Assembly (NCBI GenBank): GCA_027013095.1
Contig: JALUYI010000006.1
Coordinates: 1 to 64,000 of the forward strand
Direction of reading: 5' to 3'
DNA length: 64,000 nucleotides
DNA from: Paracoccaceae bacterium
GTDB lineage: Bacteria; Pseudomonadota; Alphaproteobacteria; Rhodobacterales; Rhodobacteraceae
The notes below the pieces were generated by a model. It made no database searches and had not been told where the DNA came from. It saw only the letters and a program-made list of their open reading frames with translations. The translations under genes were made by a program, and so were the position numbers. Position 1 is the first letter of the stretch; every line of letters starts with the position of its first letter. This document shows, one piece after another, positions 8,442 through 64,000 of this stretch.

Positions 8442-8514
8442 ATAAGTCAAAGACTTACCACCTTTGCTTGTTGCCTTTTTGGCCGAGTTTCTTGGCGGCC
8501 GCCAAGAAACCCCC

Positions 8515-8697: not shown

Positions 8698-8866
8698 GCC
8701 GTGTACTTATTGATTCGACATCTCCATGAGGTGTGGGATGTCCGTGTCAAAGGGTGACCGACATCACCGATATCGGGGTGCATTCCCTCGTCCCAAGGCC
8801 GATCGGTTGCGCATACCTCGAGCGGGGCCGATCGTGCAACGGTCCCGCCCGGGGTTGATCAGGGCA

Positions 8867-9130: not shown

Positions 9131-9151
9131 TTTCAGTCCTTTCCCGTTCAA

Positions 9152-17542: not shown

Positions 17543-17743
17543 TAAGGATGCCTTTCCTGTCAATTCTGCGCCTGCTTATACGCAGGTTCAGCGGCTTTTG
17601 AAAAGAGGTGTGCGCGGGCAACCCGCCTGCGCTGTGCGACGGCATGAATCCGCCACTTAAGGATAATTTCCTTGCCATTCGCAGGCATATGATGGAATTG
17701 AGGCCCAGCTTTTCCAACGCCCCAGAGATGGTTCCGCGCCGCC

Positions 17744-18856
17744 GTGCCAAATGTCACACCAAAAAATCCGATCCCCGAGCTGACGATCGTCGTTCCAACC
17801 TTTAACGAGCGGGACAATATCCGCCCGCTGGTGGACCTTTTGGAACGGGCCCTGCCCAAAATCACATGGGAAGTGGTTTTTGTCGATGACGACAGCCCGG
17901 ATGGCACCGCCCGCGAGGTGCGTGCGCTGGCACGTGAAAAGATGAACGTGCGCCTGATCCAGCGGATCGGGCGGCGCGGTCTGGCCGGGGCCTGCATCGA
18001 GGGTATCCTGTCCAGCGTTGCACCCCTCGTTGCGGTGATGGACGCCGATCTGCAGCATGATGAAACGAAACTGGCCGAGATGTTTGCGCTGATGCAGGAC
18101 GACCCAGAGCTGGATCTTGTTATCGGCAGTCGCAACGTGGCCGGAGGCTCGGCCGGAACCGGGCTGTCAGCACTGCGCAAGACCGGCAGTGATCTGGCAA
18201 CGGCTTTGGCGCGGCGGGTTCTGAAGATCACCGCTTCGGACCCGATGAGCGGTTTTTTCATGGTTCGTCGCGGCAGTTTCAACGCCGTGGTTCTGGGCCT
18301 TCAGCAGCAGGGCTTCAAGATCCTCGCCGACATGCTGTCCGCCAGCAAGGGACAATGGAAGGTTGCCGAGGTGCCCTATACGTTTCGCAAGCGTCAGCAT
18401 GGTCAGAGCAAGATGGACAGCGCCGTCACGCTGGAATTTCTCAGCCTGCTGGCGGTGCGGATGACCGGAGGGCTGGTCTCGATCCGTTTTATCCTGTTCA
18501 TGCTGGTCGGTCTGTCGGGACTTGTGGTGCATCTGGCCTTTTTGCGTCTGTTCCTGACCTTTGTTCCCACCGAGTTCATTGTGGCTCAGACCGGCGCGGT
18601 GGTGATCGCCATGACCTCGAACTTTTTTCTGAACAACATGCTGACCTACAAGGACCGCGCCCTCAGCGGCTGGCGATTTTTTCGCGGACTTTTTTCATTT
18701 TACGGGGTATGCTCGGTCGGAGCCGTGGCCAATATCGGGGTTGCCAGCGCAATATATGCGGTGCTGCCCTACTGGGCTTTTGCCGGATTTTGCGGCGCGC
18801 TGGTCGGGGCATTGTGGAACTTTGTCGCCAGCGCACTGGTGACCTGGAAAGCGTGA
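17744..18856 (+). CDS. GT2 glycosyltransferase fused to a GtrA domain
   Basis: A 370-residue protein. Residues 10-240 are a family 2 glycosyltransferase of the dolichol-phosphate-mannose-synthase type (TIVVPTFNERDNI, VFVDDDSPDGT, VAVMDADLQHDETKL). The last 130 residues form four predicted transmembrane helices of the GtrA type (RFILFMLVGLSGLVVHLAFL onward). Proteins of this layout load a sugar on undecaprenyl phosphate and help move it across the membrane. The start is GTG at 17744, just before the conserved domain. The GT39 gene starts nine bases later, so the pair probably adds a sugar to an envelope component. Confidence 0.9.
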   Translation: MPNVTPKNPIPELTIVVPTFNERDNIRPLVDLLERALPKITWEVVFVDDDSPDGTAREVRALAREKMNVRLIQRIGRRGLAGACIEGILSSVAPLVAVMDADLQHDETKLAEMFALMQDDPELDLVIGSRNVAGGSAGTGLSALRKTGSDLATALARRVLKITASDPMSGFFMVRRGSFNAVVLGLQQQGFKILADMLSASKGQWKVAEVPYTFRKRQHGQSKMDSAVTLEFLSLLAVRMTGGLVSIRFILFMLVGLSGLVVHLAFLRLFLTFVPTEFIVAQTGAVVIAMTSNFFLNNMLTYKDRALSGWRFFRGLFSFYGVCSVGAVANIGVASAIYAVLPYWAFAGFCGALVGALWNFVASALVTWKA

Positions 18857-18865
18857 AGATCGTCA

Positions 18866-20392
18866 ATGTCGCTGACTCTTTCGGATATGACCCGACCCGA
18901 GACCAGCGGCAGCGGCACCGACCGACGCCTGTTTCTACGCGTCTTGCTTTATGCGCTGCTGTTCAAACTGCTGATCGTGGCAATCCTGCCTCTGGGGGTG
19001 GACGAAGCCTATGCAACCGCGGTCGCTCAGGAATTCAGCCTCAGTTTCTTTGATCATCCGCCGCTCAGTTTCTGGATGCCGGTCGCCTTTGCCCGGATCC
19101 TTGGGGTCGAAAATGCCTTTGTCTATCGCCTGCCGTTCCTGATTTCCGGGGTTTTGACCACGGCAACGATGTTTTCGCTGGGGCGAGAACTGGCCGGTAC
19201 GCGCGCCGGGTTATGGAGTGCGGTTCTGTTTGCGATGGCGCCGTTTTTTCTGGTCTCAGCCGGATTTCTGGTGGTTCCGGACGGGCCGCTCAGTCTGGGG
19301 CTGGCCCTGAGCGCGCTGTTTCTGGTGCAGATCGTGAAATCCGGCACGCGCGCGCCGCTGCGGCTGTGGATCTATACGGGTCTTGCACTGGCCTTTGCGC
19401 TGGCCTCGAAGTATCAGGCGGCATGGCTGCCGGTCGCGGTCCTGATCTTCATGGTGACAACCCGGCAGGGACGTCGCTGGTTCCTGCAATCCGGCCCTTG
19501 GCTGGCGGCGGCGATCGGCCTCACGGGGTTGGCGCCGGTCATCTTGTGGAATGCCCAGCACGACTGGGTCAGTTTTGCCTTTCACACCAGCCGCGCTGGC
19601 GATGGGTTCAACCTGAAAAACCTGTCTTTCATGCTGCTTGGGCAACTGATTTATTTATTGCCTCCGACGATGCTGGTCTCGGTAACGGCCCTGTGGGATG
19701 CGTTTCGTCATCCGATCAAACCCGAGCGGCTGTTGCTGGCGCTGATTGCGCTCGGGCCGATCCTGATCTTTAATTATGTTTATCTGACCAGCCACAGCTC
19801 GCATGCGCACTGGTCGATGCCCGGCTGGCAACTGGCCCTGCCGCTTGCAGGCGTCTGGCTGGCCGAGCGGCCACGACGCGCCCTGCGCCGTTTCTGGCGC
19901 TGGAGTATCGCTTTTATGGTCATGATCTGGGTGCCATTGCTGATCCTTGCCATTCAGGCCGACACCGGCATCTTTACCCGGGCGTTTTATGCGCGCCCGC
20001 CCAAATGGGACAACACAATCAGCATCAATGGCCTGACCGGCCTGCGCCCGGCCCTGAAGGCGCGGGGATTATGGGCCACCAGCGACGTCGTGATGGCGGA
20101 AACCTGGGCCTGGGCCGGGCGGATCGATGCCGCGCTGGGTTTTGAAAAGCCGATGCGGATCATCGATCCGGTCGGGGCGCATCACTATGTTTACCTTAGC
20201 GACGCCAAGGCGCACGGGCGAGCGCTTTTGATTTTGCCGGTGGTGCTGATCGATCAGAAGGCCGCGGCAGCACAGGCTTTGGCGCAGGCCCGAACCCTGG
20301 ACAAGGAGGCGCAGCTGCTGCCCCCCATAATCCTTGACCGCGGCGCGCAACCCTATATTGCGGTGGTATTGGTGCGCCTGCGCCTGCATTGA
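18866..20392 (+). CDS. GT39/ArnT-like membrane glycosyltransferase
   Basis: A 508-residue multi-span membrane protein of the PMT/ArnT family, which uses polyprenyl-phosphate sugars as donors on the periplasmic side. The N-terminal acidic loop is visible (LPLGVDEAYATAVAQEF, FFDHPPLSFWMPVAF), followed by about ten hydrophobic segments and a soluble C-terminal part. The donor is plausibly made by the GT2-GtrA protein encoded just upstream. The acceptor (lipid A, O-antigen or protein) cannot be read from the sequence. Confidence 0.88.
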   Translation: MSLTLSDMTRPETSGSGTDRRLFLRVLLYALLFKLLIVAILPLGVDEAYATAVAQEFSLSFFDHPPLSFWMPVAFARILGVENAFVYRLPFLISGVLTTATMFSLGRELAGTRAGLWSAVLFAMAPFFLVSAGFLVVPDGPLSLGLALSALFLVQIVKSGTRAPLRLWIYTGLALAFALASKYQAAWLPVAVLIFMVTTRQGRRWFLQSGPWLAAAIGLTGLAPVILWNAQHDWVSFAFHTSRAGDGFNLKNLSFMLLGQLIYLLPPTMLVSVTALWDAFRHPIKPERLLLALIALGPILIFNYVYLTSHSSHAHWSMPGWQLALPLAGVWLAERPRRALRRFWRWSIAFMVMIWVPLLILAIQADTGIFTRAFYARPPKWDNTISINGLTGLRPALKARGLWATSDVVMAETWAWAGRIDAALGFEKPMRIIDPVGAHHYVYLSDAKAHGRALLILPVVLIDQKAAAAQALAQARTLDKEAQLLPPIILDRGAQPYIAVVLVRLRLH

Positions 20393-50168: not shown

Positions 50169-50671
50169 ATTCGAGAACAGGGATTGAGCCCACCCGTCCC
50201 TTCCCGCCATCCAGCGCTATGATCGCGGGATGAACGACGCTGACGAAAAACGCATTGCAGACAAGCCTCGTCTACAAGGTCAATGCAGGCACCTCGGCCC
50301 AGATGCGCGGGCGTCCGGTACTGGACGGTACGATCGAAAGCAGGGGTTCGTTTGGTGAGGTATCCAGTTCGTAAACGTCGCTCGCCGCTGAGCGATAACT
50401 GCCGCGCCTTGGGAACGCTCAGTGTCGGCGACGCCACCGAACCGCATGGGTAGTTTTGCGGTGCGGACGGGTATTTCGCGGCTGACAAGACGACCTTTTG
50501 CGGGGCGAAGCTCGGCAATGGATCATTGAGGATTTGGGGCCATTCCTCTGGTGTAGGCTCTTGACTCTTTAGTCGCTACGGACTCTAGCGTCCCTTCAGC
50601 CGTAGCAAAGAGGGAAGACGAAGGCCGTGCAAAGTTGCTCGGTTTGCGCGCCAGGGATATTGGGAACGACC
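50169..50671. other. junction between phage scar and accessory block
   Basis: About 500 bases with no convincing gene. A 41-codon frame at 50230 and an antisense frame are present but show no recognised family. The right part carries a MerR-type promoter (50561-50591) for the glutamate dehydrogenase gene. The change in base composition near 50.5 kb suggests the boundary between prophage debris and the GC-rich block. Confidence 0.5.
50561..50591 (+). promoter_or_regulatory. MerR-type promoter upstream of glutamate dehydrogenase
   Basis: TTGACT (50561-50566) is followed by a dyad CTTTAG-TCG-CTACGG (50567-50581) and, after a 19-base spacer, TAGCGT as -10. The overlong spacer with a dyad between the boxes is the hallmark of MerR-family activation. 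The right arm is the weakest of the five sites in the window. Confidence 0.5.
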
Positions 50672-51964
50672 ATGAAAAAAACATTCGACGCTGCGATATC
50701 CCGTCTCGGACCGGTCCTGGATCTGATTGATGTCTCTCCAGAAGTCGTGGCCCGCCTTTCATCCCCAAGCCTGAGCGTGACCGTCAACATTCCGGTCCGC
50801 ATGGATGATGGCTCATTGCGTATATTCGAGGGCCACCGCGTGCAGTATGACATGACGCGCGGGCCGGCAAAGGGCGGTATCCGGTTTCACCCGGATGTTT
50901 CGCTGGATGAAGTCACCTCGCTGGCCTTCTGGATGACGGTGAAATGCGCGGTGGTCGATCTGCCGTTTGGCGGCGGCAAGGGCGGCATCGCGGTTGATCC
51001 GCGCGGGCTGTCGCGGCTGGAAATCGAGCGCCTGTCGCGCGGCTACATCCGCGCCATCGCCGACCTGATCGGCCCGGAAAACGATGTGCCGGCGCCGGAC
51101 GTGAACACCAATGAAACCATCATGGGCTGGATGGCCGACGAATACGCGCAGATCGTGCGCCGCAAGGTGCCCGGCGTGATCACCGGCAAGCCGGTGGCGC
51201 TGGGCGGTCTGCCGGGGCGCGAGGCGGCGACCGGGCGCGGCGCGCTGCATGTGTTCGGCGAATGGCTGAGCCGTCAGGCGATCGACCCCGGCAGCCTTCG
51301 CATCGCGGTTCAGGGCTTTGGCAATGCCGGCTATCACTTTGCCCGGATCGCCGTGGAAAACGGCTTTCGCGTGGTTGGCCTTTCGGATTCACGGGGCGGG
51401 ATCTATTCGTCCGACGGGTTGGACCCGGTCAAGGTGATGCACCACAAGCAGACGCGCCGCGAGTTGAAGGCCATGCTCTATTGCGACAGCTCGGTGTGCG
51501 AAGAGGCCGAGCATGAAAAACTCAGCCCCGAACAGGTGCTGGAACAGGACGTGGATGTGCTGGTGCTGGCGGCGCTGGAAAACCAGATCACAGCCGAGAA
51601 TGCCGAGCGCGTCAGGGCGCGCATGGTCGTGGAAATCGCCAACGGGCCGGTGACCCCCGAAGCCGACCGGATACTGGCCGACAAGGGGGTGACGGTTCTT
51701 CCCGACGTGCTGTGCAATGCCGGCGGGGTCACCGCCAGCTATTTCGAATGGGCGCAGAACCGGGCCGGGATCTATGGCGACGAGGCGCGGCTGGCCGAGC
51801 GCCTTGGCAAGGTGATGGAAGGGCAGGCGCGCCGGGTGTTCGACCTTGCCGAAGACAAGCAGATCGACCTGCGCACGGCGGCCTATGTTCTGGGCGTCGG
51901 GAGAATCGCCGATGCCATGCACGCCACCGGAACCGCGGAGTTTTTTGCCAATGGGACGCCCTGA
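50672..51964 (+). CDS. Glu/Leu/Phe/Val dehydrogenase
   Basis: A 430-residue NAD(P)-dependent amino-acid dehydrogenase, most like glutamate dehydrogenases. The substrate motif is VDLPFGGGKGGIAVDPRGLS with the catalytic Lys region, and APDVNTNETIMGWMADEY follows. The nucleotide fold begins at IAVQGFGNAGYHFARI. It should interconvert glutamate with 2-oxoglutarate and ammonia. ATG at 50672 follows GGGA; a frame start at 50627 lies in the leader. It is the first gene after a MerR-type promoter and overlaps the patatin gene by 14 bases. Confidence 0.92.
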   Translation: MKKTFDAAISRLGPVLDLIDVSPEVVARLSSPSLSVTVNIPVRMDDGSLRIFEGHRVQYDMTRGPAKGGIRFHPDVSLDEVTSLAFWMTVKCAVVDLPFGGGKGGIAVDPRGLSRLEIERLSRGYIRAIADLIGPENDVPAPDVNTNETIMGWMADEYAQIVRRKVPGVITGKPVALGGLPGREAATGRGALHVFGEWLSRQAIDPGSLRIAVQGFGNAGYHFARIAVENGFRVVGLSDSRGGIYSSDGLDPVKVMHHKQTRRELKAMLYCDSSVCEEAEHEKLSPEQVLEQDVDVLVLAALENQITAENAERVRARMVVEIANGPVTPEADRILADKGVTVLPDVLCNAGGVTASYFEWAQNRAGIYGDEARLAERLGKVMEGQARRVFDLAEDKQIDLRTAAYVLGVGRIADAMHATGTAEFFANGTP

Positions 51965-52820
51965 ACGACACGCGGCGCTGGTCTTGTGCGGTGGCGCCAG
52001 CCGGGGCGCGCTGGAGGTCGGGTTTTACAAGGCGTTGGAGGAGCTGGGCCTCGGCTTTGACCGCATCGTCGGCACCTCGATCGGCGCCTTCAACGGGGCG
52101 ATGATCGCAGGCGGGCTGCGCGCGGCCGAGATCGAGGCGCTCTGGCTCGATTTCAACCTGCGCAAGGCGGTGTCGTGGAACTGGGGCTGGCTGGCGCATC
52201 CACGGCTGCAACCGGGCCTGTTTTCGCTGGACCGCTTTCGCGCCCTGCTGCACGAGGTGCTGCCGGCCACCCGGTTCGAACATCTGAAACTGCCGCTGAC
52301 CATCACCACCACCGACCTTGACAGCGGCAAGCCCGTCTACTGGCACGGCCAGGGTGATCTGATCGAACCGCTGATCGCCTCGATGAGCCTGCCGGGCATA
52401 TTCCCCCCGGTCATGCTGGAGGGCAGGCTGCATGTGGATGGCGGCATTGCCAACAACGTGCCGCTGGACCGCGCCCGGGACGAAGGTGCCGCCCATGCGC
52501 TAGTCATCGATTGTTATTGCGACCGGCCCTGCCTGCGCCCGCCGCGCGGGATGATCGCGATCCTGACGCGCAGCTTTGCGGTTGCCGTCGACGGTAAATT
52601 TCATGCCGACCTCGCACGTCTGAAACGCCGGATGACCATCGAGCGGGTCACGCCGCATTTCGACAACAACGTCGAGATGATGGACTTCAGCAAGACCGCC
52701 GAGTTGATCGAAACCGGCTATCGGGCGACGATGCGCCACTTTTGCAGCGCCGATTATCAGGTCGTTTCGAACAGCGCGTCGATCACCGGGCAGTCGGGCA
52801 CATCGCCCTGCGTGCATTGA
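51951..52820 (+). CDS. patatin-like phospholipase
   Basis: A 289-residue cytoplasmic lipase of the patatin family. The oxyanion hole is LVLCGGASRGALEVGFYKAL, the nucleophile Ser lies in GTSIGAFNG, and the dyad Asp in VDGGIANNVPL. Such enzymes deacylate phospholipids. ATG at 51951 lies inside the end of the dehydrogenase gene, so it is coupled. With cfa nearby, membrane-lipid turnover under stress is a plausible theme. It is convergent with merR; the two genes overlap by about 64 bases at their ends. Confidence 0.9.
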   Translation: MGRPERHAALVLCGGASRGALEVGFYKALEELGLGFDRIVGTSIGAFNGAMIAGGLRAAEIEALWLDFNLRKAVSWNWGWLAHPRLQPGLFSLDRFRALLHEVLPATRFEHLKLPLTITTTDLDSGKPVYWHGQGDLIEPLIASMSLPGIFPPVMLEGRLHVDGGIANNVPLDRARDEGAAHALVIDCYCDRPCLRPPRGMIAILTRSFAVAVDGKFHADLARLKRRMTIERVTPHFDNNVEMMDFSKTAELIETGYRATMRHFCSADYQVVSNSASITGQSGTSPCVH

Positions 52821-53176
52821 TCGGCCATTTTCTTCAACACGCCCTTCAGCTTGCGCAGCCGGCGGATGCGTTGCTCGACGGCGGCGAGGTGGCCCGTGGT
52901 CATGTCGTGGATTTCGCCGCAGGACAGGTTCTCGCTGTCCACCATCACCAGCATCGTGCGGATTTCTTCCAGGCTGAACCCCAGTTCGCGGCACTTCTTG
53001 ACGAAGGAAAGCCGTTTCAGATCGTTGTGGGTGAATTGCCGGTATCCGTTAGCGGTGCGGTCCGGCGCCTGCATGACCCCGATGCGTTCGTAATAGCGGA
53101 TGGTTTCAATGTTCACCCCGGTCATTTTCGACAATCGTCCAATGGTGAAGCCGCGCGCATCCTTGATTCTATTCAT
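52757..53176 (-). CDS. MerR-family metal-responsive regulator
   Basis: A 139-residue regulator. The winged helix begins FTIGRLSKMTGVNIETIRYYE, and the long dimer helix runs over residues 85-120. Cys86 (LSCGEIHD), Cys121 and Cys129 (DQCTQGDVPDCPVID) stand at spacings 35 and 8. Metal-site cysteines are Cys82/117/126 in Tn501 MerR and Cys77/112/119 in CadR, that is 35/9 and 35/7. A thiolate metal site for Hg, Cd, Pb or Zn is therefore likely, but the exact ion is open. ATG at 53176 follows AAGGGAAAAG. The divergent dyad at 53194-53208 is its probable operator, and similar dyads occur at three more promoters. Confidence 0.9.
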   Translation of the reverse strand: MNRIKDARGFTIGRLSKMTGVNIETIRYYERIGVMQAPDRTANGYRQFTHNDLKRLSFVKKCRELGFSLEEIRTMLVMVDSENLSCGEIHDMTTGHLAAVEQRIRRLRKLKGVLKKMADQCTQGDVPDCPVIDALFETT

Positions 53177-53187
53177 GAACTTTTCCC

Positions 53188-53218
53188 TTGAGCCCGTAGT
53201 CACTACAGCCCGCAACTA
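53188..53218 (+). promoter_or_regulatory. MerR-type operator/promoter between merR-like gene and cfa
   Basis: TTGAGC (53188-53193) is followed by the dyad CCGTAG-TCA-CTACAG (53194-53208) and a 19-base spacer to CAACTA. The -10 match is poor; TAATAC lies four bases further on. The placement just upstream of the regulator's ATG and reading toward cfa is the classical divergent mer layout. Confidence 0.6.
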
Positions 53219-53319: not shown

Positions 53320-54561
53320 ATGCTTTTGGCAAAACTCTTGAACAGGGCGATCCGCAAAGGCACGCTGAACGTGATCGACGCAGGGGGGAAAACCCACTGT
53401 TTCGTCGGCACGCCATCGCCCGAGGTTACCGTGCGCCTGTACAACCGCGCGCTGGAATACCGGCTTTACATCAACCCCGATCTGGCGATGGGCGAGGCCT
53501 ATATGGACGGCACACTGACCATCGAACAGGGCAGCCTGCGCGCGTTTTTCCAGATTGTGGCCGACGCCGAGACCAGTGCCGGCGCCGATCCGCTCTACCG
53601 GTTGCGTGATCGGCTATGGCGGGCGACGCGCGGCTGGCAGCAGCGCAACGCACAGGCGAGATCGCGGCGCAACGTGGCACATCACTACGATCTGCCGGAT
53701 GCGCTCTATGACATGTTTCTCGATCGAGACAAGCAATATTCATGCGGCTATTTCGAACACCCCGACGACGATCTCGAAACCGCGCAGGCCGCCAAGAAAC
53801 GCCACCTTGCGACCAAGCTGCTGCTGACGCCGGGGCAGCGGGTGCTCGACATCGGCTCGGGCTGGGGTGGGCTGGCGCAGTACCTTGCCGATGCCGCCGG
53901 GGTCAAGGTGACGGGCCTTACCCTGTCGCAGGCCCAGTGGGCGCAGTCGGTCGAGCGCGCCGGAACCAACCCCGACCTGCAGTTTCACATGCGCGATTAC
54001 CGAGAGGAAACCGGAACCTATGACCGGATCGTTTCGGTCGGGATGTTCGAACATGTGGGCATCGGCAACTACGAGCGGTTTTTCGAAACCGTCCGTGATC
54101 TGCTGAGCGACGACGGCATCGCCGTGATCCACACCATTGGTCGCCAGTCGGGGCCGGGCAGCACCTCGCCCTGGATCCGCAAATACATCTTTCCCGGCGG
54201 CTATTCGCCGGCGCTTTCCGAGATCATGGCGGCGTTAGAGAAAGCCGGCCTGTGGCTGGCGGATGTCGAGGCATTGCGGTTGCACTATGCCTACACCTTG
54301 CGGGCCTGGCAAAAGCGGTTCGCCAGGCGGCGCGGCCAGATCGCCGCGATGATGGACGAGCGATTCTGCCGGATGTGGGAATACTACCTTGCCGCCAGCG
54401 AAGCCGCGTTTCTTTACGGCGATCACCTGGTGTTCCAGCTGCAACTGTCGAAAACCCGTGATGCCGTGCCGATGACCCGCGGCTATCGCGGCTATATGGA
54501 GCCTCATGAACAACTGATCAGGCTGTCGGAGGCATCCGTTGATGCGCGCCGGATCGTCTGA
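53320..54561 (+). CDS. cfa: cyclopropane-fatty-acyl-phospholipid synthase family methyltransferase
   Basis: A 413-residue SAM-dependent methyltransferase that modifies unsaturated acyl chains of phospholipids. Family features are AHHYDLPDALYDMFLDRDKQ, then YSCGYFEHPDDDLETAQ, the SAM motif LLTPGQRVLDIGSGWGGLAQ and VSVGMFEHVG. ATG at 53320 follows GGAAGGAAAGACG, the best site in the leader; ATG at 53296 and a frame start at 53224 are weaker. It reads from the MerR-type promoter shared with the regulator gene. Cyclopropanation is a known membrane response to stress. Confidence 0.93.
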   Translation: MLLAKLLNRAIRKGTLNVIDAGGKTHCFVGTPSPEVTVRLYNRALEYRLYINPDLAMGEAYMDGTLTIEQGSLRAFFQIVADAETSAGADPLYRLRDRLWRATRGWQQRNAQARSRRNVAHHYDLPDALYDMFLDRDKQYSCGYFEHPDDDLETAQAAKKRHLATKLLLTPGQRVLDIGSGWGGLAQYLADAAGVKVTGLTLSQAQWAQSVERAGTNPDLQFHMRDYREETGTYDRIVSVGMFEHVGIGNYERFFETVRDLLSDDGIAVIHTIGRQSGPGSTSPWIRKYIFPGGYSPALSEIMAALEKAGLWLADVEALRLHYAYTLRAWQKRFARRRGQIAAMMDERFCRMWEYYLAASEAAFLYGDHLVFQLQLSKTRDAVPMTRGYRGYMEPHEQLIRLSEASVDARRIV

Positions 54562-54580: not shown

Positions 54581-55930
54581 TCAGACCATCGAGCCGATGT
54601 CTGACGCATAGCTGGGATAGGCAAAGATCCGGGCCTTGATCTGATCGGCGGTCAGGCCGCTGGCCATGGCCATGGCGAAGAGGTTGATCTGTTCCTCGGC
54701 GCCCGGGCCGATCAGATGCACGCCCAGCACCTTGCCTGTGCCCTTTTCCACCAGTGTCTTGAAGCCCGAATGTTTCGCACCGACCCGCATCGAGGAATAC
54801 CAGCCCTCGGTCGTCTGGGAATGCACGTCGAAGTCCAGCCCCTGTTCGCGCGCCTGTGCCTCGGACAGGCCGACGGTTGCCACCGGGGGCAGGGTAAACA
54901 CCGCGCTGGGGATCGGCGGGTAGTCGACAGCGTGTTCGTCCTTGCCTGCCAGCAGGTTCTTGGCGGCGATTCGGGCTTCGTAGGCGGAAACCGGCGTCAG
55001 GTTCAGCCCGCTGTCGGCACAGTCGCCGGCGGCGAATACCTGCGGGTTGGTGGTGCGCATGTAGGGGCTGACGGTGATGCCGCGCCGGGTGCGTTCGATG
55101 CCAGCGGCCTCGAGGTTCAGATCGTCGATATTGGGCACCCGCCCGGTGGCGTGTACCACCAGATCGCAGGTGATGGTCTGCGCGCCATCCGGGGTTTCCA
55201 CCGAAACCACGTATTCGTCGCCGGACTTGCTGACTTCAAGCACCTTGGTGCTGGTGCGCAGGTCGATGCCAAGCTCATCGGTCGCCTCGACCAGCATAGC
55301 CACCATGTCGGGGTCGAAATTGCCAAGCGGGCGGTCCATCATTTCCAGCACCGTCACCTCGGCGGCCCCGGCGCGGCGCGCGATATGGGAAAACTCCATG
55401 GCGATGAAGCCGCCACCGACGAAAGCGACGCGTGCCGGCAGGTCGGGCAGGTCGAGGAAATCGGTCGAGGTGATCAGGTGGTCTTCGCCGGGAATGTTCA
55501 GCGTCATCGGGCGCGCCCCGGTCGCGATGTGGAAATGGCGCGAGGCATAGGGTTTGCCGTCGACCTCGACCGTATCGGGGCCGGTGAAGCGGGCGCTGCC
55601 GTGCAGAACCGTGATCCCGGCCTTTTCCAGCCCGCTTTCGATGCGCGGGGGCATGTTGTCGGTGAAGGTGCGCTTGAAGGCAATCATGTCGGCCCAGTTG
55701 ACGCCGACTTTCGCGTTCAACCCCTTGCCGGCCATGGCATGGGCCATTTCCACGCCTTCGGTGACGGCGATCAGCATCTTTTTCGGATCGCACCCGCGCA
55801 GAGCGCAGGTGCCGCCGAACGGCAGGCAATCGACGCTCGCCACTTTCCAGCCGGCGGCGGCCGCCGCGCGGGCCACGCCATTGCCGCCGGTGCCGCCGCC
55901 GATCACTATCAGGTCGAAATCACTGGACAT
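54581..55930 (-). CDS. glutathione-reductase-like flavoprotein disulfide reductase
   Basis: A 449-residue class I pyridine nucleotide-disulfide oxidoreductase. The FAD motif is LIVIGGGTGGNGVARAAAAA, the redox-active pair is FGGTCALRGCDPKK, and the NAD(P) motif is RVAFVGGGFIAMEFSHIARR. The dimerisation domain lacks the His-Glu pair in the form typical of glutathione reductase and lacks the C-terminal CC of MerA. The natural substrate is therefore unclear; glutathione-, mycothiol- or metal-related use is possible. ATG at 55930 follows AGGAG. A separate MerR-type promoter with a perfect dyad lies upstream. Confidence 0.88.
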   Translation of the reverse strand: MSSDFDLIVIGGGTGGNGVARAAAAAGWKVASVDCLPFGGTCALRGCDPKKMLIAVTEGVEMAHAMAGKGLNAKVGVNWADMIAFKRTFTDNMPPRIESGLEKAGITVLHGSARFTGPDTVEVDGKPYASRHFHIATGARPMTLNIPGEDHLITSTDFLDLPDLPARVAFVGGGFIAMEFSHIARRAGAAEVTVLEMMDRPLGNFDPDMVAMLVEATDELGIDLRTSTKVLEVSKSGDEYVVSVETPDGAQTITCDLVVHATGRVPNIDDLNLEAAGIERTRRGITVSPYMRTTNPQVFAAGDCADSGLNLTPVSAYEARIAAKNLLAGKDEHAVDYPPIPSAVFTLPPVATVGLSEAQAREQGLDFDVHSQTTEGWYSSMRVGAKHSGFKTLVEKGTGKVLGVHLIGPGAEEQINLFAMAMASGLTADQIKARIFAYPSYASDIGSMV

Positions 55931-55979
55931 TTTTGTATTCTCCTGGGGTTGGTGCGCGACGGGATGCCACGACCCATTC

Positions 55980-56010
55980 CACATAGGCTCTGTATGAGAT
56001 ACAGGGTCAA
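55980..56010 (-). promoter_or_regulatory. MerR-type promoter with perfect dyad upstream of the flavoprotein gene
   Basis: Read on the minus strand: TTGACC (56010-56005), dyad CTGTAT-CTC-ATACAG (56004-55990), spacer of 19 bases, then TATGTG (55985-55980). The arms are perfect, but differ from the GTAG/CTAC arms of the other four sites, so another MerR-family protein could be the activator. Confidence 0.65.
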
Positions 56011-57939: not shown

Positions 57940-57970
57940 TTGACCCTGTAGTTGCTACATGGGGCATTCG
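57940..57970 (+). promoter_or_regulatory. MerR-type promoter upstream of the membrane thioredoxin gene
   Basis: TTGACC (57940-57945) is followed by the dyad CTGTAG-TTG-CTACAT (57946-57960) and a 19-base spacer to CATTCG, a poor -10. The start codon lies 54 bases further on. Confidence 0.6.
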
Positions 57971-58023
57971 TTTTCCCGTGAACGGCGGGGCTATGCACCC
58001 CCATTTGGCGAACAAGGACAATC

Positions 58024-58599
58024 ATGCAGGAAACAGTCGGAACGAAACTGAACCGCAAGGGTCTGGCCATAGGGCTGACCCTGACGTTGCTGGTACTGAT
58101 CGGGGTGATCTATTACCTGCCAGCGGCGCTGAACCGCAGCACACCGGACACGGGGGCTGCTGGTCTGACAATCGGGCGCGCCTTTCCGGACTTTGCGCTG
58201 AGAACGATCGACGGCAAGACCGTGACGCCGGCCAGCCTGTCCGGCAAGCCCTATATCCTCTGGTTTACCACCAGTTTTTGCGTGCCCTGCCAGGTCGGGG
58301 CCGAGCGCGTGGCCGCGCTCGACAACCGGATGGGCGGCGACAAGTTCAACGTGGTGGTCGTGTTCGTCGATGCGAGGGAGCCGATACATGCCCTGCGCAG
58401 CTGGCGGCAGAAGCATGCTTCGGGCGACTGGATGCTGGCCTTCGACAACAGCAGGCAGCCGTTGCAGCAGATGGTCGGCCTGCAATATCTCGATTCCAAA
58501 TATCTGGTGGATGCGAGGGGAATTCTGCGTGACGCCGATTTCCAGATGGTCCGGAGCGAATATCTGAAACGCATCGCCGATGTCGTGGCAGGGGGCTGA
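58024..58599 (+). CDS. membrane-anchored thioredoxin-like protein
   Basis: A 191-residue protein. One N-terminal transmembrane helix (GLAIGLTLTLLVLIGVIYYL) anchors a periplasmic TlpA-like thioredoxin domain. The active site is SFCVPCQVGAERV, preceded by LSGKPYILWFTT. The CVPC site and the fold match the C-terminal domain of the DUF3105 fusion protein encoded at 61205. It probably reduces disulfides in the periplasm, fed by a CcdA-like carrier. The next gene begins one base after its stop. Confidence 0.87.
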   Translation: MQETVGTKLNRKGLAIGLTLTLLVLIGVIYYLPAALNRSTPDTGAAGLTIGRAFPDFALRTIDGKTVTPASLSGKPYILWFTTSFCVPCQVGAERVAALDNRMGGDKFNVVVVFVDAREPIHALRSWRQKHASGDWMLAFDNSRQPLQQMVGLQYLDSKYLVDARGILRDADFQMVRSEYLKRIADVVAGG

Positions 58600-58600
58600 C

Positions 58601-59041
58601 ATGGCAGATATCCTGATCCTCAAGCTGTGGCGCCACCCATGGCCGGCGCTTGCGGCCGCAGGCACGATGCTGGCCGTGTTCTTCTGGCCGGCGCTGCCGC
58701 TCAGGGGTGTCGGCGCGTGGCTGGAGTTCTTCTATTACTACACGCCCGAGAACTATCTTTACGCCCTGCTCACGCTTCTCTCGGGCCTCTATGTGGGCAT
58801 ATATGTGTATAACAAGACGGTTTGCGCGACCTGCCGAATCGATACTGGCAAGGCAGGGACTGCCGGTGTGTTCGGCGGTGTGCTGCTGGGCGCCTGTCCC
58901 GCCTGCATTCCGGCGCTCGGCATATTCCTGCCATTGGGGGTGAGCGTCTACCTCAGCCGGATAAGCTGGGTTTTCCTTGTTCTGGCGGTGCTGCTGCTGA
59001 CCTTCCTGATCTATCGCATGAACGGATTCCGGCGTGCCTGA
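58601..59041 (+). CDS. Cys-rich polytopic membrane protein of unknown function
   Basis: A 146-residue protein with about four hydrophobic segments. Two Cys pairs lie in or beside membrane segments: VCATCRID and LLGACPACIPALGIFLPLG. The second, CPxC inside a Gly/Pro-rich helix, recalls CcdA- and MerT/MerC-like carriers of electrons or metal, but I do not recognise a family. ATG at 58601 follows AGGGGG at the end of the thioredoxin gene. The two genes are co-transcribed from the MerR-type promoter. Confidence 0.78.
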   Translation: MADILILKLWRHPWPALAAAGTMLAVFFWPALPLRGVGAWLEFFYYYTPENYLYALLTLLSGLYVGIYVYNKTVCATCRIDTGKAGTAGVFGGVLLGACPACIPALGIFLPLGVSVYLSRISWVFLVLAVLLLTFLIYRMNGFRRA

Positions 59042-59139
59042 GAGACACGTCGAGCGGGCCGATAAGTCTCTGGCCCGCCCGGCAATTGCGATTTGATATC
59101 TGGTAAGAAATAGAGGCTAAATCTTTGAATTTACATCAT

Positions 59140-59170
59140 TTGACACTATAGTTGCTACAGGCATTACCCT
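59140..59170 (+). promoter_or_regulatory. MerR-type promoter upstream of the Cox11-like operon
   Basis: TTGACA (59140-59145) is followed by the dyad CTATAG-TTG-CTACAG (59146-59160), a 19-base spacer and TACCCT as -10. It has the best -35 box and one of the best dyads of the set. The start codon lies about 58 bases downstream. Confidence 0.68.
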
Positions 59171-59227
59171 TTGATTATCAGGAAACCGTTCGTTTGAAAC
59201 GGCACCTGAAGCAAAGGGAGAGTAGCC

Positions 59228-59866
59228 ATGAAACCAGGATTATCCGGCCTAGCCGTGGGCGCATTAGTGCTTGCCACCGCAATGACCGTTTCCGGAAACA
59301 TCGCGCTTGCCGGCAGCGAAAAACCGGGTTCGGAACCGGAATATGTTGCCGGCTTTACCTATCCGCTGCAACTGAAACTCGATCCCTCGCGAATCAGCTT
59401 CAGCCGTGCGAAATACCTGCCGATGCCGCCTGCCGGCAAGGTGACGGTGCAGCTTCGGGGCACGGCCGTGGACGCGGCCATTCCAGGGGCGTTCAGGTTC
59501 TACCTTGCCAACAAAAACTCCGGCGGCCTGTTCACCACGGTTTCACTGAAGGCGGGCGAGACGATCCCGAAAGGCCAGGAACTGACCAACGGCATCGCCT
59601 TTGTCGAGCCGGGCAAGTGGTACACGCTGGTCGTGGCCTATGAAAACCCCACCGACCACGACGTGAATTTCTACGTGACCGCCCCGACGGTGGACCCCGA
59701 GGCCGCCTTTCCGTTCGCGCGCGCCTTGTGCTGGTGCGCGGCGGTGCCGTTCTCGGCCCCGGCGCATGGCGCGTTCTACCGGGTCATCAAGGTTGGCGTC
59801 GGCGTAAACACCCCGCCCGGTGCGCGTGCCATCGTCGACTGGCCCGTTGTTGCAATCAACGAATGA
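59228..59866 (+). CDS. secreted Cox11-like CxC protein, paralogue 1
   Basis: A 212-residue exported protein with signal peptide (LAVGALVLATAMTVSGNIALA). The C-terminal half has a beta-rich fold with YTLVVAYENPTDHDVNFYVT, then RALCWCAAVPFSAPAHGAFY. The layout (NPT...V, then a CxC motif) parallels the copper site of Cox11/CtaG (CFCF), though overall similarity looks weak. Copper or other soft-metal binding is a reasonable inference. It is followed after 13 bases by a clear paralogue. Confidence 0.7.
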   Translation: MKPGLSGLAVGALVLATAMTVSGNIALAGSEKPGSEPEYVAGFTYPLQLKLDPSRISFSRAKYLPMPPAGKVTVQLRGTAVDAAIPGAFRFYLANKNSGGLFTTVSLKAGETIPKGQELTNGIAFVEPGKWYTLVVAYENPTDHDVNFYVTAPTVDPEAAFPFARALCWCAAVPFSAPAHGAFYRVIKVGVGVNTPPGARAIVDWPVVAINE

Positions 59867-59879
59867 AGGAGTGCCGAGC

Positions 59880-60530
59880 ATGTTTGTCACGAAAATCAGC
59901 CGCAAGGCCTTGTTGCCTGCCGCGCTCGCTGTTCTTGGCGGCCTTGCGATGCCCGCCATCGCCCATGAAGGCCACGAACACCTCAATTCCCCAAGCGTCA
60001 GCGTCGTCAATGACGTGCCGGTGGTGCTCAACGCCATCGCCGACCGGACAACCGACATACCCGAACCGCCCGCCGGCATGGTGGCGCTGCGCCTGAGCAC
60101 CGCCTATGCGCCCGACCTGCTGCCCGGTGGCGGGGTCGAGTTCCACCAGCCCGACCCGGAAGTGGACAGCCTCTGGGCGATGGAATCGCTGGAGGCGGGC
60201 GAGGATATTCCGGCCGGCGCCAAGATCGACAACGGCGTGCTGTTCCTCAAGCCCGGTGAGTTGAAGATGGTCACCGTGGTCTATCGCAACCCGACCGACC
60301 AACCGGTGCAATTCGTGACCTTGCCGCACCAGGACTCACCCAGCTACCTGGCGCAATTCGCCAAGCTGACCTGCTTTTGCCTGTCCTTCGTCTACAAGGC
60401 CCCCGCCCACGGTGCCTGGTATCGGGTGATCCGCGTCGGCATCAATCCGAAAACGCCACCGGGATCGAAGATCGACGCGGTGTTCACCATCCTGACCGAT
60501 CCCAACGATTTTCTGCCCGCAGGGAGCTGA
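59880..60530 (+). CDS. secreted Cox11-like CxC protein, paralogue 2
   Basis: A 216-residue exported protein with signal peptide (ALLPAALAVLGGLAMPAIA) and a His-rich mature start (HEGHEH). The second half matches the upstream paralogue: VTVVYRNPTDQPVQFVTLPH, then AKLTCFCLSFVYKAPAHGAWY. The CFC motif is nearer to the Cox11 consensus than CWC in paralogue 1. ATG at 59880 follows AAGGAG. The His-rich start could form an extra metal site. The tandem pair suggests a heteromeric metal-binding unit. Confidence 0.72.
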   Translation: MFVTKISRKALLPAALAVLGGLAMPAIAHEGHEHLNSPSVSVVNDVPVVLNAIADRTTDIPEPPAGMVALRLSTAYAPDLLPGGGVEFHQPDPEVDSLWAMESLEAGEDIPAGAKIDNGVLFLKPGELKMVTVVYRNPTDQPVQFVTLPHQDSPSYLAQFAKLTCFCLSFVYKAPAHGAWYRVIRVGINPKTPPGSKIDAVFTILTDPNDFLPAGS

Positions 60531-60537
60531 GAAAGAC

Positions 60538-60981
60538 ATGGGTAAATGTGAAGTCATCCCTTTGGCGGCGGTCGCAGTCCTGTCGGTTTTTGTGGCCAGC
60601 GGGTATGCACAACAAAGCCAGTCGTCCTTGTCGGCGGCCGCCCCCGAAGATTCCTATCAGCTTGCCCAGGCCACCCCGGATCCGGCGCTCGTCAAACGGG
60701 GCAGGAAGCTGGCCGCACGCAAGGGCTGTGCGGCCTGCCACTCTGCCGATGGCTCAAGCAAAGCCGGACCAACCTGGAAGGGCCTGTTTGGTCACTCGAT
60801 CGAATTGGCCGACGGCAGCACCGTTCTGGCGGACGAAGCCTATATCCGGCAATCGATTCTCGATCCGAATGCCAAGATCGCAAAGGGGTATTCCAAGGGG
60901 CTGATGCCCAGGAACTATACCTCCAAGCTCAAGGAACAAGGCATTCAGGCCCTGATCTCCTACATCGTGAGCCTGAAATAG
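60538..60981 (+). CDS. c-type cytochrome, single haem
   Basis: A 147-residue exported class I cytochrome c. A signal peptide (VIPLAAVAVLSVFVASGYA) is followed by one haem site, CAACH, and the Met ligand region GLMPRNY. The segment PTWKGLFGHSIELADGSTVL resembles the cytochrome domain at the end of subunit II of caa3-type oxidases. It starts seven bases after the Cox11-like paralogue 2. It may take electrons from, or give them to, the CxC proteins or a terminal oxidase. Confidence 0.88.
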   Translation: MGKCEVIPLAAVAVLSVFVASGYAQQSQSSLSAAAPEDSYQLAQATPDPALVKRGRKLAARKGCAACHSADGSSKAGPTWKGLFGHSIELADGSTVLADEAYIRQSILDPNAKIAKGYSKGLMPRNYTSKLKEQGIQALISYIVSLK

Positions 60982-61204
60982 ATGACCGCAGGATCGGCGG
61001 CGGGCCGCGTGAGGTCAACTGAACAGCGTGACGAGTGCAAAGGCGGCAATGCCGCCGACCGCCAGGGTGGGGGCCGGGTCTTCCGTGGATTCGGCTTGCC
61101 CCCTTCCTGCCTGGCGGCCGGCCACGGGTGCGCCCTTGGCAATTCAAGACCCCAGCAGGATTTTTCCTCAGCTTCACCCTCACCCGACAAAAGGAATCCG
61201 AGAC

Positions 61205-62206
61205 ATGCACAACTGGCGTGAACTGACAACTGCCCTGGCAACCTGCGCCCTTGTGGCGGCGCTCTCCGGTCCTGCTGAGGCCCATGATCCGAACATCTCC
61301 GCCCCCGTGTCGGTCGCTGCAATCGCGGCGCTGGGGGTGCAGACCTTCCCAGTGCTCGAATCTCCGCATGTCGACAGCGTCCCGGCCTCGGCCTACAACT
61401 CGAACCCGCCCACCTCGGGGCCGCATCTGGCAAAACCGCTCGACTGGGGCGTTTACGATGCGCCGGTGCCGGACGCGGCCGCGGTCCACAACCTTGAGCA
61501 TGGCGGCATCTGGATTACCTACCGCCCCGACCTTGCCAGCGGCGACGTGGCCAGGCTGCGCGATCTGGCGGCGCATTATCCGAACGCGGTGATCCTGTCG
61601 CCGCGCCCGGCCACTGACAGCCCGATCGCGGTGGTGTCGTGGGGCCGCATGATGCGGCTTGAGCGCGCCGATATTGGGCGGATCGACAGCTATATCCAGA
61701 CCTTCGTCAACCAGAGCCCGGAAGAGTATTCGTCACTCGCCCATGACAAGTTCAAGGCACCGGCCGCTCCCGTTGTCGGGGCGCCCTTTCCGGCCTTCGA
61801 ACTGGTCGACGTAGATGGCAGGACGATCAACAATGAGACCATTCTGGGCAAGCCCACTGTTCTGTGGTTCACGACCAGCTGGTGTGTCCCCTGCCAGATC
61901 GGTGCGCGCCACGTTGCGACCTTTGACAAAGAATTGGGGGATGCGGCATTCAACGTGGTGGTGGTGTTCGTCGATCCGCGGGAAAGCGACAGCGATCTCC
62001 GCGAGTGGAGGCGCAAGTTTGGCAACGACGACTGGGTGGTGGCTTTCGACAATGCCGTGGCACCGTTGGCGCAAATGGCGGCGGTGCAATATCTCGACAC
62101 GAAATTCCTGATCAATTCCAATGGCCAATTGGTCGATATAGATGTGCAACTCGCCAAGGATGCCTACTTGCGCAAGATCCGGTCAGTGGTTCAAGGAGGA
62201 GGATGA
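61205..62206 (+). CDS. DUF3105-thioredoxin (TlpA-like) fusion protein
   Basis: A 333-residue exported protein. A signal peptide (ELTTALATCALVAALSGPAEA) is followed by a DUF3105 domain (SYNSNPPTSGPHL-like YNSNPPTSGPHLAKPLDWGV, VHNLEHGGIWITY, VVSWGRMMRL; about residues 50-170). The C-terminal 140 residues form a thioredoxin domain with site SWCVPCQIGARHV, very similar to the membrane thioredoxin at 58024. DUF3105 has conserved His residues (HNLEHGG) and no settled function. ATG at 61205 follows AAAGGA; the frame extends upstream to 61028 without a signal. The 3' end overlaps the convergent CcdA-like gene by 24 bases. Confidence 0.86.
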   Translation: MHNWRELTTALATCALVAALSGPAEAHDPNISAPVSVAAIAALGVQTFPVLESPHVDSVPASAYNSNPPTSGPHLAKPLDWGVYDAPVPDAAAVHNLEHGGIWITYRPDLASGDVARLRDLAAHYPNAVILSPRPATDSPIAVVSWGRMMRLERADIGRIDSYIQTFVNQSPEEYSSLAHDKFKAPAAPVVGAPFPAFELVDVDGRTINNETILGKPTVLWFTTSWCVPCQIGARHVATFDKELGDAAFNVVVVFVDPRESDSDLREWRRKFGNDDWVVAFDNAVAPLAQMAAVQYLDTKFLINSNGQLVDIDVQLAKDAYLRKIRSVVQGGG

Positions 62207-63055
62207 TGCGCGGTTGTTGGCCTGGCTGCGTACGGCGCGCCGGTGCAGCAGAATGGCTGTCGAGATGGCGGCAATGCCCAACAATGCGCCCGCCGCTACC
62301 GTCCGGCCCGCACCTTCCGATAGAAACTGGCCGAACATCGCCGCCCAGTAGCCGCCGGTGTCGAGGATCGCCCGCATCCACGGAGTGTCGTTGAACAACA
62401 ACTGACCCCAGTAAAGAAAGACATAGCCCCCCGCCAGCGCCGTCAGGGCGCCCGAGAGGCGGCGCAGTGTGGCATGATGCCGCCCGACTACCTGGAACAC
62501 ACCGGCGCCGAGCACAGCCGCAACAACCGAAATGGCGGCCAGTATCGCGCCCGACCCCAGCAGGAAGAAAGCCACGTTTTGCAGCGCCAGGTCGCTGTCG
62601 CCAAGGAAGGACACGCCGGCAAGGCCCATGAAAACCGGCAAGGTGCAGGACAGCGAAACAAATCCGTAGGAAAGGCCAAAGCCGACGGCGCCATAACGCG
62701 CATTCGCCCGCCGGCAGGTGGATGTGATCCGACTGGCCGGAAGCCGCAATCCCGCCACCGCCAGCAGGCCCCAGACCACCAAGGCGCCACCGATCGTCGC
62801 GCCGACATAGGGCAGCATCGGCCCCAGCCAGTTGGCGCCCGAGCCAAGCACCAGCGTCGCCGCCAGGAAGGTGACGACATAGCCAAGCGTTGCCGCGGCG
62901 GCATTGGTCGATGCGCGCAGGAAGCGCATGGCATTTCCATCGCCTTCATGCCCGGCCAGCTGGCGGGCGAACCATGCGGGAAGCAGGGCAAAACCGCAGG
63001 GGTTGACGGTTGAAACCGCCCCTGCGGTAAAGGCGAAGATCAGGGCCGAACTCAT
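62183..63055 (-). CDS. CcdA/DsbD-like membrane thiol-redox transporter
   Basis: A 290-residue protein with about eight hydrophobic segments. The two redox cysteines lie in the family motifs STVNPCGFALLPAW and FVSLSCTLPVFMGL. CcdA proteins carry electrons from cytoplasmic thioredoxin to periplasmic thioredoxin-like partners. The two CVPC proteins encoded nearby are natural partners. It is downstream of merA and a small membrane protein gene, likely in one operon. Confidence 0.9.
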   Translation of the reverse strand: MSSALIFAFTAGAVSTVNPCGFALLPAWFARQLAGHEGDGNAMRFLRASTNAAAATLGYVVTFLAATLVLGSGANWLGPMLPYVGATIGGALVVWGLLAVAGLRLPASRITSTCRRANARYGAVGFGLSYGFVSLSCTLPVFMGLAGVSFLGDSDLALQNVAFFLLGSGAILAAISVVAAVLGAGVFQVVGRHHATLRRLSGALTALAGGYVFLYWGQLLFNDTPWMRAILDTGGYWAAMFGQFLSEGAGRTVAAGALLGIAAISTAILLHRRAVRSQANNRASSSSLNH

Positions 63056-63064
63056 GTTCGTACC

Positions 63065-63313
63065 TCATTCGGCCGGTGCATGAATCGCGCTTTCATCCCG
63101 GTTGATATTGCACTGCCGCGCCCACTTCCGGCCCCACAGATACCGGGCGATCCCGGCGGCAATCAGGGCGATGCCGCCGGCCTGAACCCAGCCGTTTCCC
63201 AGCAGCGCCGTGATGCTGCCAAGGCTGACCCCGCCAAGCGCCAGCAGCAGCCCGCCGCAGCACACGACCTTCAGCGCGATCAGCTTGCCAAGTCCGATGT
63301 CGTTGTTTTCCAT
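63065..63313 (-). CDS. small membrane protein with CC motif, MerF/MerT-like
   Basis: An 82-residue protein with two transmembrane helices. The first carries a vicinal Cys pair (LIALKVVCCGGLLLALGGVS), as in the first helix of MerT and MerF mercuric-ion transporters. The second helix (WVQAGGIALIAAGIARYLWG) and a basic tail with one Cys follow. It lies between merA and the CcdA-like gene, so a Hg(II)-uptake role is likely, but the assignment rests on context and the CC motif. ATG at 63313 follows GAGG; GTG at 63322 is an alternative. Confidence 0.7.
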   Translation of the reverse strand: MENNDIGLGKLIALKVVCCGGLLLALGGVSLGSITALLGNGWVQAGGIALIAAGIARYLWGRKWARQCNINRDESAIHAPAE

Positions 63314-63323
63314 GTCTCGCACC

Positions 63324-64000
63324 TCACCCCGCGCAACAGCTCAGCTTGGCCACATCCATGTCAAACGTCTGCGCCGCCAGTTTCAGCCCCTCGACGGTGG
63401 TCAGATAGGGGAAGATCGTCTCGCCCAGATCCTTGGTGGTCATGGCGAACTTCAGTGCCATCGCCAGCGTCTGGATGGTGTCTGAACCCTCGGGCGCAAT
63501 GATCGTGCCGCCGAGCAGCTTGTCGGTCGCCTTGTCGGCCACCAACTTGATCAGCCCGCGCGTGTCGCGCGCCGCCAGCGCCCGCGGCACCTGGTCGAGC
63601 GGCAGCACCGAGGTTTTCACGTCGAACCCGGCGGCCTCTGCCTGCGCGGCGCTCAGCCCGACGCCCGCAACCTGCGGGTCGGTGAACACCACCCAGGGCA
63701 TGGCGGCGTTGTCATAGCGCCCATCGCCGCCCAGCACCGCGTTCTGCGCCGCCAGCTTGGCCCCATAGGCGGCCATGTAAACGAACTGGTCGCGGTCGGT
63801 CACGTCTCCGGCGGCATAGATGCCCGGCGCGCTGGTCTGCATGTCGTCGCCAACCATGATCGCGCCGCGCCTGTCCAGCCTGACGCCGGCATCTTCCAGC
63901 CCCATGCCAGCGGTACTGGCCCGCCGGCCGGCCGTCGCCACCAGCTTTTCGGCCCTGATCGCAAGGGTTTCGCCGCCGCGTTCGATGGTCAGCGTCACTT
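63324..64000 (-). CDS. merA: mercuric reductase, C-terminal part (cut by window end)
   Basis: The last 225 residues of a pyridine nucleotide-disulfide oxidoreductase; the 5' part lies beyond the window. The FAD motif APGIYAAGDVTDRDQFVYMA, the dimerisation part and the end MDVAKLSCCAG are visible. The C-terminal vicinal Cys pair is diagnostic of MerA, which reduces Hg(II) to Hg(0). Immediately downstream lie the small CC-motif protein and the CcdA-like gene. Confidence 0.92.
   Translation of the reverse strand, partial: VTLTIERGGETLAIRAEKLVATAGRRASTAGMGLEDAGVRLDRRGAIMVGDDMQTSAPGIYAAGDVTDRDQFVYMAAYGAKLAAQNAVLGGDGRYDNAAMPWVVFTDPQVAGVGLSAAQAEAAGFDVKTSVLPLDQVPRALAARDTRGLIKLVADKATDKLLGGTIIAPEGSDTIQTLAMALKFAMTTKDLGETIFPYLTTVEGLKLAAQTFDMDVAKLSCCAG

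Follow-up and report, generated by a model that had tools for sequence, protein, structure and literature searches.

The 64,000-nucleotide stretch of DNA analyzed here (the window) covers positions 1 to 64,000 of contig JALUYI010000006.1 (C6 below; assembly GCA_027013095.1, a Paracoccaceae bacterium), and its right-hand end holds a group of genes for putative periplasmic thiol-redox and metal-handling proteins that converges with the end of a mercury resistance (mer) operon. A sequence-only reading of this region had named a thioredoxin, a Cys-rich protein, a pair of CxC proteins, a cytochrome and a DUF3105 fusion on the plus strand and, converging on them, a CcdA-like carrier, a CC-motif protein and merA, all of which are indeed present. 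Two transcription units occupy the plus strand between 57.9 and 62.2 kb. Unit 1 consists of the gene for a membrane-anchored TlpA-type thioredoxin with a CVPC active site (58024..58599; AhpC-TSA, 5.7e-12) followed by that of a Cys-rich membrane protein of 146 amino acids with CATC and CPAC motifs (58601..59041), which belongs to no family. Unit 2 encodes the exported CxC protein 1 with a CWC motif (59228..59866; weak match to NF047614), the exported CxC protein 2 with a CFC motif, a remote Cox11 relative (59880..60530; NF047614, 4.8e-18), an exported class I c-type cytochrome of the CoxII-fused type (60538..60981; Cytochrom_C, 2e-10; PDB entry 1w2l, E 1.1e-21), and an exported DUF3105-TlpA fusion with another CVPC motif (61205..62206; PF11303, 112.5 bits; AhpC-TSA, 42.5 bits). 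These starts were corrected from ribosome-binding sites and signal peptides, which placed CxC protein 2 at approximately 59880 (not 59820), the fusion at 61205 (not 61028) and the Cys-rich membrane protein at 58601. The two TlpA domains, one in each unit, are 50% identical, share the CVPC motif and reach 46.1 (unit 1) and 42.5 bits (fusion) against an AhpC-TSA/Redoxin cut-off of 26.

The mer operon lies on the minus strand, and its end converges with unit 2. Its last gene encodes the CcdA-like membrane carrier (62183..63055) and is preceded by a gene for an 85-amino-acid CC-motif membrane protein (63065..63322; 47% identity over 53 amino acids to a Leisingera open reading frame located between merA and merB) and by merA, of which the C-terminal part (63324..64000, ending in SCCAG) falls into the window. 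The full merA gene (C6 63324-64772, minus strand) encodes 482 amino acids, scores 510 bits with the MerA profile TIGR02053 (cut-off 454), and keeps the active-site as well as the C-terminal cysteines. The earlier label “CcdA-like” finds no backing in Pfam, where the protein matches no family at E 0.1 and lies outside the three PF02683 matches of this genome, nor in a PDB search with the CcdA profile, which gave no match, but it holds in an alignment with four annotated CcdA proteins in which the columns of both membrane cysteines, C20 and C137, are invariant (NPCGFALLP and SLSC).

Near-identical sequences lie upstream of both plus-strand units (CTTGACCCTGTAGTTGCTACATG at 57939 and TTTGACACTATAGTTGCTACAGG at 59139). 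The 2.9-Mb genome contains three copies of a stricter form of this motif, all within the window, while a looser form adds sites at 53188, at 55990 (minus strand) and at contig position 65888 (minus strand, ahead of the mer operon) and also matches the merR-merT promoter of a second mer operon, which the same genome carries on contigs C33/C48. A simpler pattern matches the window five times versus 0.03 matches expected, a number never reached in shuffled windows, and in its exact form has few sites in the genome, again including the merR-merT promoter of the second mer operon. Independently, 19 distinct mer-type operators located close to MerR genes in other genomes of the family served to build a matrix, with which the 93.7-kb contig was scanned. 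The five window sites took the top five ranks (20.8-27.3), compared with 14.5 for the highest-scoring of 12 random sequences and 39.4 for the known merR-merT site on C33. Each of these operators is oriented toward its downstream gene: TTGACCCTGTAGTTGCTACAT (57940..57960, plus strand, score 21.5) precedes the TlpA operon, TTGACACTATAGTTGCTACAG (59140..59160, plus strand, 20.8) the CxC operon, TTGACCCTGTATCTCATACAG (55990..56010, minus strand, 27.3, the maximum of the contig) a disulfide reductase gene, TTGACTCTTTAGTCGCTACGG (50561..50581, plus strand, 24.3) a glutamate dehydrogenase gene, and TTGAGCCCGTAGTCACTACAG (53188..53208, plus strand, 24.6) lies between merR and a cyclopropane fatty acid synthase gene. 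The matrix also assigns 23.9 to a site ahead of a heavy-metal P-type ATPase gene on contig C20 (position 3283, plus strand) and is therefore not fully specific for Hg(II)-responsive MerR. A MerR gene lies downstream of that site, which probably belongs to a Zn/Cd system.

The merR gene of the window (52757..53215, minus strand, with a likely start around 53176) and the operators between 50.5 and 59.2 kb had been overlooked in the sequence-only reading, and the operator also precedes genes outside the range that it had considered. TIGR02051 is the best profile for this regulator among those of metal-responsive MerR proteins, although its 128.7 bits stay below the curated cut-off of 150.85. The best solved relative is found in entries 4ua1/4ua2, and in an alignment to 4ua1 all 3 cysteines C79, C114 and C123 are conserved; we take these entries to be MerR of Bacillus megaterium and the cysteines to be its Hg(II) ligands. 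In 148 other genomes of the family, the 5 nearest homologues (54-61% identity) are merR genes of merTP-A operons, and at all 10 homologue loci that were examined (the 5 nearest and 5 more distant ones) the same operator lies between the divergently oriented merR and merT, in most cases with merP and merA visible nearby. Because the Hg(II) ligands align and this arrangement is common to the nearest homologues, all of them merR genes, there is strong sequence evidence that the window regulator is an Hg(II)-responsive MerR. It very probably controls both plus-strand units together with the genes for the disulfide reductase, cyclopropane fatty acid synthase and glutamate dehydrogenase. The second MerR on C33 and the Zn/Cd-type MerR on C20 might likewise act on the window operators.

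The glutamate dehydrogenase gene (50672..51964, plus strand; ELFV_dehydrog, 2e-67) is the first one behind its operator and is followed by a patatin-like gene (ending at 52820, plus strand; Patatin, 9e-36), while the cyclopropane fatty acid synthase gene (53320..54561, plus strand; NF053839, E 1.6e-159) is divergent from merR. Glutamate dehydrogenase and cyclopropane fatty acid synthase are unusual company for mercury-type MerR operators. The third gene with an operator of its own encodes a flavin adenine dinucleotide-dependent disulfide reductase of the glutathione reductase/MerA superfamily (54581..55984, minus strand) with the active site GGTCALRGC. A special kinship of this enzyme with flavoproteins of actinobacterial mer loci was considered and rejected, since its identity to them (around 31%) is the same as to MerA. 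Another genome of the same genus (G897) retains the disulfide reductase gene (89% DNA identity) together with its operator (4762, minus strand) on a 15-kb stretch without mer genes. This conservation of one operator in another species, as well as the independent result of the matrix, argues against mere coincidence, that is, unrelated genes of an island with operator-like sequences that are inert. We regard such an explanation as extremely improbable despite the rarity of the whole gene set and the decay of merT and merP described below.

The two CxC proteins are 33% identical overall and have a C-terminal block around CWC or CFC in common. They match NF047614 (the LIC11469/Lsa20 family) with 65.6 and 34.8 bits, which is below the curated 150. 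Their earlier description as Cox11-like could be upheld in part: Pfam CtaG_Cox11 stays under its cut-off (E 0.005, 17.3 bits versus 25, over 48 of 148 positions), but hhalign against bona fide Cox11 gave E 1.1e-5 with 36% identity over 50 columns that include the aligned CFC. The CxC proteins are remotely related to the region of Cox11 around its CFC site. A structural model built from two sequences was poor, with a predicted local distance difference test (pLDDT) score of 51, and in a Foldseek search this low-confidence model gave no significant match; with regard to the Ig-like fold of Cox11/CtaG, entry 1so9 was listed at Z 3.9 with a root mean square deviation (rmsd) of 3.8 over 93 aligned residues.

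This relationship enters into the main rival explanation, in which the MerR-controlled genes would shield or restore the copper sites of cytochrome c oxidase upon damage by Hg(II). TlpA has an established role as reductant of the copper-binding cysteines in Cox subunit II, and the insertion of CuB is carried out by Cox11 (PMC7558416). The TlpA proteins of the locus would reduce cysteines of CoxB or Sco, the Cox11-like proteins would supply Cu(I), and the electron donor would be replaced by the CoxII-type cytochrome c. We consider respiratory repair the main rival in view of three components with links to the oxidase, namely TlpA, Cox11 and a CoxII-type cytochrome; the best solved relative of the cytochrome is the CoxII cytochrome domain 1w2l, and TlpA-CcdA-DUF3105 loci elsewhere include genes for cox assembly, CopC or DUF305. 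However, genes for oxidase subunits, Sco or PCuAC are absent from the set, the match of the CxC proteins is restricted to the C-terminal part of Cox11 and under the curated cut-off, and CcdA is tied to the mer operon; we regard oxidase repair as rather unlikely. In another rival reading, the cytochrome c would pass electrons to periplasmic Hg(II) bound by the CxC proteins and yield Hg(0) outside of the cytoplasm. A cytochrome c gene next to two genes for exported CxC proteins behind a mer operator would fit this idea, and for acidophilic thiobacilli a reduction of Hg(II) at the end of the respiratory chain has been reported (cited in PMC8261052). Yet the locus encodes a single heme protein and no multi-heme or terminal reductase, which makes respiratory Hg(II) reduction very improbable.

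The DUF3105 part of the fusion is a clear member of its family (112.5 bits against a PF11303 cut-off of 25), and its model is confident in the core (pLDDT near 97). Its nearest structural match is Trx2 (Z 7.6, rmsd 3.6, 96 residues aligned), and matches 2 to 50 are almost all thioredoxins or protein disulfide isomerase domains at Z 6.4-7.1, although values of Z below 8 alone may reflect merely a common arrangement. The domain is predicted to be thioredoxin-like. It has no CxxC, and the conserved H-x-x-E-H-G motif that takes its place suggests metal binding.

Several parts of the set recur next to mercury genes in other organisms, which together with the operators at both plus-strand promoters supports the proposed link to mercury: CcdA, TlpA and DUF3105 are each found beside merA elsewhere. 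Relatives of the CcdA-like protein occur on 15 plasmids, and among the 11 that were inspected, merA lies within 10 kb in 8 and a TlpA or redoxin gene lies beside CcdA in 10. CcdA, TlpA-CcdA or TlpA-DUF3105 adjoin merA or merB in Leisingera, Rhodococcus, Pseudonocardia, Pseudarthrobacter, Nocardioides, Mycobacterium, Streptomyces and Halorussus. On two Halorussus plasmids a DUF3105 protein is encoded beside merA and merB, and the Halorussus aquaticus copy, which was read, is a TlpA-DUF3105 fusion with the reverse domain order. A kinship of the 146-amino-acid membrane protein with a 178-amino-acid CC protein of Halorussus had been considered on account of a similar layout, which is an impression only and finds no support in BLASTP. 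Sets of DUF3105, TlpA and CcdA also occur in Patescibacteria and Anaerolineae. As a side observation, DUF3105 genes repeatedly adjoin genes for CPxC or CC membrane proteins, TlpA, CcdA, DUF305, and copper or mercury functions (loci L116 of Anaerolineae, L075, L056 and L192); a flavoprotein near DUF3105 at locus L071 was ruled out as MerA by its active site.

Taken together, an enlarged regulon of an Hg(II)-responsive MerR with a periplasmic arm for thiol redox and metal handling is our preferred explanation, to which we assign a probability of roughly 0.5, because MerR has the Hg(II) ligands and mer operators precede five units, with a weaker form at the mer operon. Hg(II) would switch on all units that bear the operator. 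The CcdA-like carrier from the mer operon would then draw electrons from thioredoxin in the cytoplasm and deliver them to TlpA and DUF3105-TlpA in the periplasm, which in turn would maintain the CxC proteins and the CC/CPAC membrane proteins with reduced cysteines. In this state, these proteins could bind Hg(II) or copper as soft metals on the periplasmic side and relay Hg(II) inward to MerA, while the disulfide reductase, glutamate dehydrogenase and cyclopropane fatty acid synthase might contribute to cytoplasmic thiol supply and membrane repair. The intact CVPC motifs and both intact CcdA cysteines fit such a route, and the MerR operators at the promoters of genes for exported thiol and metal-binding proteins suggest that the mercury response extends beyond the inner membrane.

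Different lines of evidence weigh against the enlarged regulon. Within the mer operon of the window, merA, the genes for CC proteins and CcdA are intact, but merT has an internal deletion and lacks the CC segment found in its C48 counterpart, and merP stops short after CSSCP (both on the minus strand of C6 at 65.4-66.0 kb, 8376-9025 of stretch L004). In addition, the operator of the mer operon itself scores 12.7 with the matrix, which is background level. Part of the region may therefore be decaying. A C-terminal remnant of a tyrosine recombinase (HDLRHTFAS...TTARYAHLA), seen by eye at around 9000-9200 (minus strand) of stretch L004, lies just upstream of the mer promoter and suggests past mobility. 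Moreover, a second and complete mer operon with merR, operator, merT, merP and merA is available on C33 (10893-11403) and C48 (1-2312), of which the contig ends overlap; its merA is 70% identical to that of the window, and its merT-merP-merA set on C48 is intact. A more far-reaching proposal would have the damaged MerT/MerP import replaced by an Hg-MerR-switched pathway in which thioredoxin-fold proteins act together with the two Cox11-like CxC proteins and the CoxII-type cytochrome to capture and possibly reduce Hg(II) outside the cytoplasm via the respiratory chain and the CcdA route; we deem it quite improbable.

Recurrence of the set is likewise incomplete, and co-occurrence in other genomes, which the sequence-only reading had named as a refuting check, was seen for CcdA, TlpA and DUF3105 beside merA but not for the CxC pair and the 146-amino-acid membrane protein. 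The latter has no relatives in 384 other alphaproteobacteria or in plasmids, and no relatives of the CxC proteins were found in one alphaproteobacterial and two Pseudomonadota samples, viral contigs, plasmids, and a scan of around 85,000 genomes with two short peptide patterns that distant relatives would escape; the sole match from these searches was one ordinary Cox11. Since the CxC pair and the 146-amino-acid protein were not found in any other genome searched, in sets that may leave out very near relatives of the source genome, the complete set is unreplicated. Furthermore, the DUF3105 family is not linked to mercury as such, with merA near 1 of 80 genome loci (Halorussus), and actinobacterial plasmids carry TlpA-CcdA-DUF3105 sets next to DUF305 and genes for copper functions. 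These copper plasmids and the score of 23.9 ahead of the P-type ATPase gene on C20 would fit a system for copper or for soft metals in general, in which the resemblance to mercury regulation is confined to MerR-type operators. We nevertheless view such a system as clearly unlikely, given that the regulator has the Hg(II) ligand set, that its nearest homologues are all merR, and that the closest metal genes are merA and CcdA.

To our knowledge, mercury MerR controls one divergent mer promoter. The sequence of the window predicts at least five extra MerR promoters through which periplasmic thiol redox, a cytochrome, the disulfide reductase, glutamate dehydrogenase and cyclopropane fatty acid synthase would join the mercury response, and this predicted regulon is a testable picture of the processes that are shielded from Hg(II) besides the action of MerA. 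It would also provide a first functional lead for DUF3105 and a possible reason for the recurrent presence of CcdA and TlpA genes beside merA across unrelated phyla. Beyond the window, two genes resembling subunits of dissimilatory sulfite reductase were seen by eye beside siroheme synthase (17365-19820, plus strand, of stretch L004).

The claim that no such system had been described needs to be narrowed. Loci with TlpA and CcdA are part of actinobacterial mer regions, and TlpA-CcdA-DUF3105 sets recur at copper-type plasmid loci, but our literature search did not turn up any mercury MerR regulon with several promoters, CxC proteins and a cytochrome. In the library searched, no paper names DUF3105, and for mer or MerR in combination with TlpA, CcdA or cyclopropane fatty acid synthase the only relevant item was a table of actinomycete proteins in which TlpA (as TrxA) and CcdA are labelled “mercury transporter” (PMC12195606). 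Similar to these actinobacterial mer loci, the window combines a TlpA-type thioredoxin and CcdA with merA. The actinobacterial loci, with merA/merB, differ by ArsR-type regulators in several cases and by the lack of CxC proteins, cytochrome or DUF3105, and they encode TlpA and CcdA in one operon, whereas CcdA of the window belongs to the mer operon and converges with the TlpA genes on the opposite strand. We presume that the TlpA-CcdA loci of the actinomycete table correspond to mer ORF III/IV of Streptomyces lividans.

Among copper-type systems, the plasmid loci of Rhodococcus opacus B4 and Pseudarthrobacter chlorophenolicus A6 with TlpA, CcdA, DUF3105 and DUF305 have three module families in common with the window but are accompanied by copper-resistance and cox-assembly genes and have no merA. 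The Cox11/CtaG copper chaperones share the CFC motif and around 50 surrounding residues with the CxC proteins, which in contrast show no full-domain match, stay under the Pfam cut-off, and come as two tandem copies with signal peptides. The mer islands of Halorussus resemble the window by joining TlpA and DUF3105 in one protein beside merA, followed there by CC-motif membrane proteins, but they are archaeal and differ by the reverse domain order, a zinc-finger N-terminus, an ArsR regulator, and the absence of CxC proteins and cytochrome. Finally, mer operons of Rhodobacteraceae such as the one on the Leisingera aquaemixtae plasmid NZ_CP041157 (order merR-T-P-F-A-CC-merB-CcdA) share merA (68% identity), small CC-motif membrane proteins, a CcdA-like last gene (44%), which in Leisingera adjoins merB, and the type of MerR operator. 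The window departs from this arrangement by the absence of merB, the internal deletion in merT, the truncated merP, the location of merR around 12 kb away and the five further operator promoters. What is new at this locus is a mer system with a predicted additional periplasmic arm, a variant of the known mer systems.

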